Below, piece after piece: positions 18,246 through 40,012 of a stretch of 42,741 nucleotides of DNA. The notes beneath the pieces were generated by a model, which had not been told where the DNA came from, searched no databases, and saw only the letters and a list, made by a program, of their open reading frames with translations. A program made the position numbers and the translations under genes. Source of the DNA: an uncultured Elusimicrobia bacterium (GTDB taxonomy: Bacteria; Elusimicrobiota; Elusimicrobia; Elusimicrobiales; Elusimicrobiaceae); assembly GCA_947306425.1 (NCBI GenBank), contig CAMZGO010000012.1, positions 1 through 42,741 of the forward strand, in the 5' to 3' direction. Numbering within the stretch: position 1 is the first letter of the stretch; each line of letters opens with the position of its first letter.

Positions 18246-18278
18246 GTAAAATTGTATTTTATTCCGGTAAGTTTTATT

Positions 18279-18313
18279 GGTCTAATGGTCAAAAATGTTG
18301 CTGATTAAGTATC
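18279..18313 (-). repeat. Degenerate inverted copy of the 53-bp repeat
   Basis: These 35 bases match the reverse complement of 18587-18621 at 29 of 35 positions. With the copy at 18569-18621 they form an inverted pair enclosing about 255 bp of structured non-coding DNA. Confidence 0.6.
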
Positions 18314-18568
18314 TTTTCCTTAAAATTGTTGCTCTTTTATTTTCCTCCCCCTTTGCCGTTTTATTTTTGCCTTAGCAAAAATAAGAAAGGGCGGAGGGGT
18401 TAGGGGTGGGGGTTGCCCATTAATACATTTTACGTCTCTGAAGTTTACTAATAAGGTACCCCCCTCTTGCCTCGCAAATAAAATTTGCTCGGCTTTCTCC
18501 CGCCCATTTTTTACATAGATAAAGACCGTAAAAAATGGGTGGCGAAAATAAAAGAGAAAGCAAAAAAA
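18314..18568. other. Structured non-coding segment with two hairpins
   Basis: This lies in the 554-bp gap between pilin B and the zinc-ribbon gene. Hairpin 1 is ATTTTTGC (18363-18370), loop CTTA, GCAAAAAT (18375-18382), framed by C-rich CCTCCCCCTTT (18344-18354) and G-rich AAAGGGCGGAGGGG. Hairpin 2 is CCCATTTTTTAC (18503-18514) with GTAAAAAATGGG (18528-18539), enclosed by GCTTTCTC (18492-18499) and GAGAAAGC (18554-18561). With its flanking inverted repeats it resembles a small non-autonomous repeat element. I see no convincing gene. Confidence 0.5.
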
Positions 18569-18621
18569 TAACATTCCATCATTTTTGATACGGTATTAGC
18601 AATATTTTTGACCATTAGGCC
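18569..18621. repeat. 53-bp dispersed repeat, copy 2
   Basis: This is an exact copy of bases 1-53 in the same orientation, about 18.6 kb away. The sequence diverges immediately after the final GCC. It forms the right arm of the inverted pair with 18279-18313. Confidence 0.75.
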
Positions 18622-18696
18622 GAAAATTTTAAAATTAAAAAACCGTAGTGTGAATATGTTTACACGCTGTACAGGATACTTAAATATATTTAAAAA

Positions 18697-33136: not shown

Positions 33137-33232
33137 TTACTTGTTTTTATCGTGTTTAGCAATTAAAAAAACAAAGTAAAAAGCACAAAACATTATCAAA
33201 AAGAAAGATAAAAAAACTAATATTTCCTTCAT
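33137..33232 (-). CDS. 31-residue single-pass membrane peptide
   Basis: An ATG at 33232 on the minus strand, preceded by GGAG with a 5-nt spacer, opens a 31-codon frame ending TAA. The peptide starts MKEILVFLSFFLIMF, has one hydrophobic helix (about residues 4-24) rich in Phe and Leu, and ends in the charged tail AKHDKNK. I do not recognise the family. Its size and shape resemble small subunits such as CydX, CcoQ or KdpF, but no partner gene is adjacent. It lies downstream of tauE and of an attenuator-like leader (33263-33466), which supports it as a real regulated gene. Confidence 0.55.
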   Translation of the reverse strand: MKEILVFLSFFLIMFCAFYFVFLIAKHDKNK

Positions 33233-33262
33233 ATTTTCTCCATTTATAAAAAATAGCCTAAT

Positions 33263-33311
33263 AAAAAACGGCTGTTATTTGAGGAATTCCAAGCACTCAA
33301 ACAAACAGCCG
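33263..33311 (-). terminator. Terminator hairpin upstream of the 31-residue peptide gene
   Basis: On the minus strand CGGCTGTT (33311-33304) and TTTGAG (33301-33296) pair with CTCAAA (33283-33278) and AACAGCCG (33276-33269). Six T follow at 33268-33263. This is a 14-bp stem with a small internal asymmetry, a good intrinsic terminator placed about 30 nt before the peptide start codon. Confidence 0.7.
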
Positions 33312-33370
33312 CCGTCTTTTGTTTTTTAAAAACAAAAGACATATAACGGCTATTTTTGGTTTGGAATTCC
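33283..33370 (-). promoter_or_regulatory. Alternative (antiterminator-like) hairpin
   Basis: Nested inverted repeats: TTGGAATTCC (33361-33370) with GGAATTCCAA (33283-33292); CGGCT (33347-33351) with AGCCG (33307-33311); and a core of GTCTTTTGTTTTT (33314-33326) with AAAAACAAAAGAC (33328-33340). The segments 33307-33311 and 33283 onward are also needed by the terminator hairpin, so the two folds exclude each other. Confidence 0.5.
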
Positions 33371-33466
33371 TTTCTCTCGAAAAGCGGCAAAAGCCCCCAA
33401 AAACAGCAAAATTATTTAGCCCCAAGGGCCAGAGATTAAATAAACCTCCTAACTAAATAAATTATA
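33371..33466 (-). promoter_or_regulatory. Leader of the 31-residue peptide gene
   Basis: On the minus strand an extended -10 box TGATATAAT ends at 33461, predicting transcription from about 33453. The leader contains AGGAGG (33450-33445) with no ATG, GTG or TTG at a usable distance, a GCCC/GGGC mini-hairpin near 33420-33430, and complementary CTCT and GAGAG ends (about 33431 and 33376). It may be a sensing domain before the two alternative hairpins. I do not recognise a known riboswitch class. Confidence 0.4.
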
Positions 33467-33472
33467 TCAATT

Positions 33473-34390
33473 TTAAATATATTGACGAGGATTTTTTATT
33501 GTATATAGAGTAAAAATATTTATGAACGCAAATAAAACAAAAGCACAAATTATCATTAAATAACGACTGAAACTAACTAAACCGCATAAATTTAAAACAG
33601 TATTGGTTATGATAATTAAAATAATGCTCCCAAAACTTTTTTGTAAAATTTTGACATATCCTTTTCTTACAACTATTTTGCCATATTTTACCCCCATAGG
33701 GAAACCGAAAGCCCCGCCAAAAGCAATAAGAATACCTAAAAATAAAATGTGAGTATGAAAATTCCCGTCATCAAACAAATAAAACATTGAGCCGCTGACA
33801 GTTGCCACCAAAAGTAAAAAACGTATGGCTTTAGCGGCGAGTTTTTCCGCTACTTTAAAACCGTTTATTATAACAGGCCTAAAAATTAAAGCACCGCTGA
33901 TACCGAGTAAAGAACTTAAAATACCTGTCATCATTCCGCAAAGAAATGCAATTAAACTTTGTCCTTTTGTAAAATGCGGAATTAGATTCTGATTAGTTTC
34001 AGTTTTACCAAATATGCTTTTGAGCCCTATAAACAACATAACGAAAGCAAAAATACTAAGCAAGGCTTTAGAACCGAACTTATCATACAAGTAGGCATTT
34101 ATTAAACGTCCGCTGAAAGCAGTTAAAACAACACCTAAGGCCATAGGCAAAGCAAGGCCTCTCATTAAAGAACGTTTACCCCAAGAAACAGTTTTTATTT
34201 CCTTTAATACAGTAGGCGCAGTAGATAAAACCATCTGAAAAAGTGCCGCCCCCACTGCTTCCATTGGCTGAAAACCGAATATAAGCATCGTCGGGACTAT
34301 TAACCAACCACAACCGACACTCCAAAACCCGCCGCAAAACATTCCTATAAAACCAATCAACGGGAAAAATAAATAATTATACCAAGCCAT
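33473..34390 (-). CDS. TauE/SafE-family membrane transporter
   Basis: This 305-residue protein has about eight hydrophobic segments. Its N-terminus GFIGMFCGGFWSVGCGWLIVPTM and the internally repeated counterpart GMMTGILSSLLGISGALIFRPV show the two-repeat architecture of TauE/SafE (DUF81) permeases. Members export sulfite, sulfoacetate or other small anions; the substrate cannot be assigned here. The start lies just beyond the rpmA terminator-like hairpin, with a TAAAAT box (34401-34396) 5 nt upstream and no Shine-Dalgarno, so it may be a separate near-leaderless transcript. Confidence 0.85.
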   Translation of the reverse strand: MAWYNYLFFPLIGFIGMFCGGFWSVGCGWLIVPTMLIFGFQPMEAVGAALFQMVLSTAPTVLKEIKTVSWGKRSLMRGLALPMALGVVLTAFSGRLINAYLYDKFGSKALLSIFAFVMLFIGLKSIFGKTETNQNLIPHFTKGQSLIAFLCGMMTGILSSLLGISGALIFRPVIINGFKVAEKLAAKAIRFLLLVATVSGSMFYLFDDGNFHTHILFLGILIAFGGAFGFPMGVKYGKIVVRKGYVKILQKSFGSIILIIITNTVLNLCGLVSFSRYLMIICAFVLFAFINIFTLYTIKNPRQYI

Positions 34391-39926: not shown

Positions 39927-39979
39927 CGTCGTGTGGTATAATTGCCTCTTGACAACGTTTTTTTTTTTTTTTGTATAAT
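39927..39979 (+). promoter_or_regulatory. T-tract promoter of pilin E
   Basis: CGTCG (39927-39931), 17 nt, TTGACA (39949-39954), ACG, 15 T (39958-39972), G, TATAAT (39974-39979). The spacer is 19 bp. The upstream block 39883-39948 matches the one before pilin C at about 56 of 66 positions. Confidence 0.78.
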
Positions 39980-40012
39980 TTTTAATATAGATTATATTTT
40001 GCGAGGTAATTT

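Follow-up and report, generated by a model that had tools for sequence, protein, structure and literature searches.

The leader upstream of a 31-residue membrane peptide gene is one member of a multi-copy structured RNA family that has no match in Rfam. Every copy ends in a terminator, and nearly all copies stand before an open frame. The element is best explained as a cis-acting transcription attenuator within a large family of RNA leaders; this reading is likely rather than established, as there are no transcript data and condition-dependent termination is inferred.

Layout of the leader and extent of its family

The leader (33460-33263, minus strand, ∼190 nt) lies in the window, the whole 42,741-nucleotide stretch of Elusimicrobia DNA that was analysed, downstream of a TauE-family gene (33473-34390; Pfam TauE). 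In transcript order, the locus contains a promoter, the leader, its terminator, a GGAG sequence and an ATG (33232) that opens a 31-codon frame ending at 33137 on the minus strand. The −10 box is TATAAT (33466-33461) with TG before it, and a partial −35 box, TCGTCA, starts at 33488 with a spacing of 16 nt. The features and the basis of each assignment are as follows.

33461..33488 (-): promoter, TCGTCA, 16 nt and extended −10 TGATATAAT
33417..33430 (-): P0, small 5' hairpin (GGCCC..GGGGC); a hairpin is at the same place in most copies
33397..33406 (-): P1 5' strand CTGTTTTTGG, segment 1; helix 1 of the family alignment
33386..33395 (-): P2 hairpin, inside P1; fold and orthologue comparison
33372..33384 (-): P3 hairpin region, inside P1; other sequence in orthologues, still a hairpin
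33361..33371 (-): J, AGGAATTCCAA, partner of L5; different sequence in each paralogue of the same genome
33346..33359 (-): P1 3' strand and its extension CCGT, segment 2; alternative partners P1 5' or P5 5' arm
33314..33340 (-): P4b hairpin; two pairs with compensatory changes in the orthologues
33296..33312 (-): P5 5' arm, segment 3; family alignment and covariation
33284..33295 (-): L5, terminator loop with the complement of J; family alignment and J:L5 test
33263..33283 (-): P5 3' arm (segment 4) and U-tract, intrinsic terminator; sequence, alignment and covariation
33137..33232 (-): 31-residue single-helix membrane peptide MKEILVFLSFFLIMFCAFYFVFLIAKHDKNK, with stop; homologue comparison

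The antiterminator-type helix spans 33371-33283, and the terminator spans 33312-33269 with T6 at 33268-33263. P5 is missed by a simple terminator scan because its loop is longer than 8 nt. The window leader folds at −73.8 kcal/mol, compared with −50.7 kcal/mol for dinucleotide shuffles (z −5.3; 0 of 200 shuffles as stable), and two competing folds are visible in its MFE and centroid structures. A first-pass annotation made from sequence alone had described an extended −10 box, two folds, a terminator, a GGAG-ATG start and a 31-residue frame, and all of these parts are present on the minus strand. The CGGCT that it considered to be shared between the folds is correct, and the exclusive segments are longer, consisting of the P1 3' strand and extension on one side and the P5 5' arm on the other, continued by J:L5.

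The family shares a common anatomy. From 5' to 3', a copy consists of the promoter, P0, P1 5' (CTGTTTTTGG), P2, P3, J, P1 3' (CCAAAAACAG) with a YYGU extension, P4, P4b, the P5 5' arm (ACGGCTGTT..), L5, the P5 3' arm, the U-tract, a Shine-Dalgarno (SD) sequence and ATG. The window copy and its two orthologues, like a few other copies, do not have the larger P4 hairpin of the fuller copies. Of 180 copies, 107 have an extended −10 (TGnTAnnnT) at 30-130 nt before P1, with 35 expected in shuffles, and an SD-preceded ORF of ≥30 aa follows within 300 nt in 170 of 183 copies (median distance 35.5 nt).

In two genomes of the genus, a DNA search identified the same unit behind tauE, and it found diverged copies at other places. 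With a covariance model derived from 12 copies, 49-50 copies are detected in the genome of the window (1,436,810 of 1,437,240 bases searched), and 52 of 60 genomes of the Elusimicrobiaceae have matches. In the phylum, 70 of 248 sampled genomes contain matches, all within two families; same-order genomes outside the family, as far as they are listed, have none. A gapped pattern run over 84,980 genomes matched 92 stretches. All listed matches whose title names the phylum or a lower group belong to Elusimicrobiota, with sources that include rumen, horse and chicken; the title of a few matches is only 'uncultured bacterium'. The placement of the window's own genome in the Elusimicrobiaceae is an inference from such relatives. 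The exact pattern search of IMG/VR yielded no match. This repeated family behind the leader could not be seen by the first-pass annotation, and a role of the leader for the 31-residue peptide alone is too narrow a view.

No Rfam release 15 family reaches its curated score over the whole window (T-box, c-di-GMP, ROOL, GOLLD, OLE and others), and none was accepted at the window locus at permissive thresholds; the weak matches look like chance matches to hairpins or low complexity. For ten further copies compared with Rfam at permissive thresholds, the element has no match above any family's curated score. The open-access literature that was searched contains no paper describing the element, although this does not prove it to be novel. 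We know of no other element that unites dozens of copies with copy-specific clamp helices and palindromic loops.

Mutually exclusive helices and the attenuation reading

Comparison of the copies shows three structures that the leader can form and that are all selected: P1 (segments 1:2), an antiterminator (J and segment 2 with segment 3 and L5) and a terminator (3:4). The J:L5 pairing varies in sequence and is specific to each copy. The 47 copies analysed from the genome of the window have 47 different J:L5 helices of roughly 10 bp, in which J pairs with its own partner at −15.5 kcal/mol and with the partners of other copies at −5.4 kcal/mol. The own partner ranks first in 42 of the 47. In 183 copies from many genomes, the corresponding values are −16.3 and −6.7 kcal/mol, and 179 copies have their own partner in the top five. 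One exception in the genome of the window, C17:26803, has a broken J:L5. The region C17:26803-27017 is 94% identical to C4:15088-15299 of the same genome, a duplication that includes the leader, and the C17 J mismatches L5.

P1 and P5 are supported by compensatory changes. In the alignment, 98.7% of the P1 cells are paired, and three P1 pairs have two-sided changes. P1 and P5 together exhibit two-sided changes in 13 of 25 pairs, a number reached by 0 of 500 shuffles and lost in slid structures; the fitting of the alignment to these helices works in their favour. In the orthologues of the window copy, P4b is retained through two compensatory pairs. The antiterminator pairing of P1 3' and the five following bases with the P5 5' arm is better with the copy's own arm than with those of other copies (z −8.2), whereas the control pairing of P1 5' with P5 3', at equal relatedness, has no own-partner preference (z −0.5). 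The P1 3' strand is followed by four bases without a counterpart in P1, which read YYGU in 131 of 183 copies. In the nine copies in which the fourth base of the extension is C, the matching P5 base is G (9 of 9). The relatedness of the copies is not fully removed in the permutation tests. The first-pass reading of attenuation is supported by these results, since both pairings are conserved in relatives.

The different conservation of the helices can be explained by their arrangement. Segments 2 and 3 serve two helices each, so that a change requires several partners to change together, and P1 and P5 are therefore conserved. J and L5 pair only with each other, and no further assumption is needed to account for the contrast. 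Selection for distinct J:L5 sequences is not excluded and remains possible.

The two states were compared by separate folds of segments using an energy model only. As long as the nascent RNA lacks the P5 3' arm, 100% of copies favour the antiterminator, by a mean of 12.6 kcal/mol, and in the full-length RNA the terminator state is preferred in 97% of copies by a mean of 10.5 kcal/mol. The gap between the states is only 4.4 kcal/mol in the window copy. Shuffling J moves the balance ∼6 kcal/mol further towards the terminator. In the terminator state, J:L5 would be a pseudoknot, which the model does not score. The modelled energy pattern is that predicted for a kinetic attenuator and fits one without proving it.

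In the proposed mechanism, P1 would form first as RNA polymerase proceeds. Once the P5 5' arm and L5 have been transcribed, J would nucleate pairing with L5, and the long antiterminator would form. The P5 3' arm, on emerging, would then compete for the P5 5' arm, and its success would end transcription at the U-tract. Transcription would reach the gene under the influence of an as yet unidentified signal that makes the antiterminator more stable or the strand exchange slower. The gene encodes the small membrane peptide at the window locus and mostly a pilin elsewhere.

The leader has two hallmarks of an attenuator, namely an intrinsic terminator between promoter and gene and a conserved antiterminator that is mutually exclusive with it. 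Competing helices and a U-tract terminator upstream of a gene are also found in transcription attenuators with 1:2, 2:3 and 3:4 helices, such as the rplJL leader (PMC4538822) and the amino-acid operon leaders. Unlike these, the window copy has no leader peptide and no known protein ligand. It also differs from known attenuators in that a single type of leader is used for dozens of unrelated genes of the same genome and that the antiterminator has a copy-specific extension of ∼10 bp (J:L5). Besides the lack of transcript data, the residual relatedness of the copies, the unscored pseudoknot and the broken J:L5 of C17:26803, two further points stand against the attenuator reading: the downstream genes have no common pathway, which is unusual for a metabolite riboswitch, and no ligand, protein or codon signal has been identified. 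The window leader contains no SD-placed ATG and does not qualify as a leader-peptide attenuator, a type that requires a translated leader ORF whose regulatory codons overlap segment 1. As a separate observation, an SD-AUG stands before P1 in 33 of 180 copies, and in 25 of these 33 the AUG is followed at once by UAG or UAA; the start-stop pair sits at the foot of P0 (for example, C14:37949 and C1:206308 in the genome of the window). The target of ANTAR proteins consists of two adjacent hairpins with hexanucleotide loops, the second of which overlaps a terminator. The leaders do not fit this layout, as most P5 loops are ∼12-17 nt.

Downstream genes, probable gene exchange and palindromic P4 loops

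Pilins are the most frequent genes behind the leaders. In the genome of the window, 25 of the 47 analysed copies precede type IV pilin/PulG-like genes and seven precede TPR-like genes. Among the 183 copies, 88 precede pilins, and the rest include glycosyltransferase, zinc-ribbon, methylase-like, defence-like, small TPR-like and other accessory protein genes; these names were assigned from sequence motifs, not family searches. The orientation is fixed, with the element upstream in the sense direction of 27 pilins and inverted at none. When the regions before the other pilins were scanned for terminators of the leader type, without requiring sequence similarity, a few additional, diverged copies emerged, with little above background.

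The 1.44-Mb genome contains 98 ORFs with the type IV pilin/PulG N-terminal signature (in the window, for example, 13541, 17603, 26337, 35397 and 40013). Some pilin promoters have a run of ∼14-16 T in the −35/−10 spacer (window 39949-39982 (+), 35970 (-), 26257 (+), 18223 (-) and 14149 (-)). Genome-wide, there are 47 such poly-T spacer promoters, 44 of which stand before a pilin-signature ORF, and slipped-strand phase variation is the obvious reading. The genome thus appears to use slipped-strand phase-variable promoters, known for surface genes, for 44 other pilin-signature ORFs; unlike these, no leader of the family has a poly-T promoter within 500 nt.

The 31-residue peptide belongs to a real family, a check for homologues having been proposed in the first-pass annotation. 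Six homologues were found in three other genomes, some as paralogues away from tauE, and each of the seven members, which occupy several loci, has the leader ∼20-30 nt ahead of its start. The seven members share an AFYxVxLIAKH core and have many silent differences; no Pfam family matches the peptide. As a small hydrophobic helix that has a charged tail, the peptide could be a type I toxin or a small regulator in the membrane; both remain possible and undecided.

Genes appear to have been exchanged behind the leaders. One gene pair of the genome is ∼99% identical behind different leaders (C5:103755-104262 and C5:112172-112677), a second is 90% identical behind different leaders (C2:25666 and C6:20951), and in both pairs the alignment starts within the P5 3' arm. 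In a relative with a 75% identical TauE, tauE adjoins a DMT gene, and the promoter-leader-peptide unit is missing as one block. The gene pairs and the absent block therefore make exchange of genes behind leaders likely, by cassette insertion or gene conversion; the mechanism is undecided. An exchange specifically at the 3' end of the leader is no more than possible.

Other repeats were observed in the same genome. A repeat of ∼345 bp with inverted ends (GGYCTAATGGTCAAAAATG...) occurs at ∼15 sites with ∼99% identity, including window 18273-18641, and looks like a recently active MITE. A second repeat of ∼125-146 nt is found at C5:26929-27074, C10:7498-7643 and C6:75537-75660; the C5 and C10 copies lie between a leader and its gene, beginning a few bases past the U-tract. 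A hairpin repeat, GTACC(A/G)..(C)GGTACT, lies downstream of some genes in ∼20 copies (for example, C2:26178, C5:22731 and C6:21529). The GTACC..GGTAC hairpin was rejected as a cassette end, being present after only 4 of 46 leader genes.

The P4 apical loops are predominantly self-complementary. All 115 loops of 9-11 nt contain a 6-nt palindrome, with 9.1 expected after shuffling, and so do all 21 distinct loops. The central tetramers over all P4 loops include AATT, GATC, CATG, TATA, AGCT, TCGA, GGCC, TGCA, CTAG and ACGT; a minority of loops, chiefly of the CC-GACG-GG type, are non-palindromic. In 86 loops, the palindrome follows two bases and precedes one. The palindrome axis is half a base off the hairpin axis, which makes a symmetric double-stranded DNA site a poor explanation. 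An intramolecular partner was rejected, as the hexamer recurs within the leader in only 16 of 115 copies. A predicted loop-loop contact between two RNAs is a good explanation of the palindromes; dimerisation itself has not been shown.

In HIV-1 and related retroviruses, a purine-flanked 6-nt palindromic loop mediates kissing dimers (PMC5874298). The family meets the corresponding structural requirement of the dimerisation element (DIS), a self-complementary 6-nt apical loop, and the window copy has no P4 hairpin. An apical loop with a 6-nt palindrome is common to both systems. Unlike the HIV-1 DIS, the element here is a bacterial leader, its palindrome sequence varies among copies, the hairpin is absent in the window copy and dimerisation is only predicted. 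Three large structured bacterial RNAs, OLE, ROOL and GOLLD, are known homo-oligomers (PMC12286853); they are much larger than the leaders, and the leader family has no Rfam match. RNA dimerisation as an input to the switch is a possibility for which no dimer data exist.

Alternative explanations and implications

A new class of small-molecule riboswitch, in which P1 with P2, P3 and J would form an aptamer for a metabolite or ion that sets the switch, would account for a multi-helix 5' domain closed by a conserved P1 beside an expression platform, and the element is widespread in two families of one phylum. It is considered unlikely because pilins, TPR proteins, glycosyltransferases and defence-like genes have no common substrate and because little sequence inside P1 is conserved beyond short stretches, unlike a ligand pocket. 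The label 'riboswitch' in the first-pass annotation, in the sense of a small-molecule ligand, is neither supported nor refuted, as there are no binding data. A different reading places the function at the DNA level, with the 3' end of the leader acting as an exchange or insertion site for accessory cassettes and the hairpins as recombination structures. The two gene pairs with breaks in the P5 3' arm, the missing unit between tauE and the DMT gene and the accessory, heterogeneous nature of the leader genes speak for it. However, J:L5, the antiterminator, the U-tract after P5 and the leader's own promoter are what RNA attenuation needs, no linked recombinase was noticed, albeit without a dedicated search, and gene conversion between paralogues would yield the same gene pairs; this alternative is also improbable.

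The terminated leader could itself be the product, a trans-acting or oligomeric small RNA, with the downstream gene expressed only by leak-through. The self-complementary P4 loops of the fuller copies, which resemble the HIV-1 DIS, and the homo-oligomers formed by large bacterial RNAs are in favour of this view, but the P4 hairpin is absent in the window copy and a few others, and the precise placement before start codons favours cis control, leaving the small-RNA product doubtful. A mobile palindromic repeat without regulatory function is the least credible of the four (very unlikely). It would explain ∼50 copies per genome; however, the copies are highly diverged in sequence and retain several pairing sets, their orientation to genes is fixed, and the MITE-like repeat of the same genome looks different (∼345 bp, ∼99% identical). 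The first-pass annotation had named such a repeat lacking an open frame as one outcome that would refute its reading, and the copies do not show it: 42 of 50 copies in the genome have a well-placed frame of ≥80 aa downstream, compared with 10 of 50 on the other side.

The attenuator remains the preferred reading. A bolder joint reading, in which dimers formed through P4 loops, with themselves or between loop-sharing loci, set termination and the leaders are also landing sites for accessory-gene exchange, is held to be unlikely. If it were true, contact between RNAs, and not a protein or metabolite, would coordinate dozens of pilin and accessory genes. With these conserved self-complementary loops, regulated dimerisation of RNA can be tested directly in bacterial leaders, and the 183 related switches provide an unusual natural data set with a common pairing logic and differing sequences. 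In a phylum of mostly uncultured gut bacteria, a large share of the pilin repertoire is preceded by this structured RNA family, which Rfam lacks and which can reach ∼50 copies in one genome.
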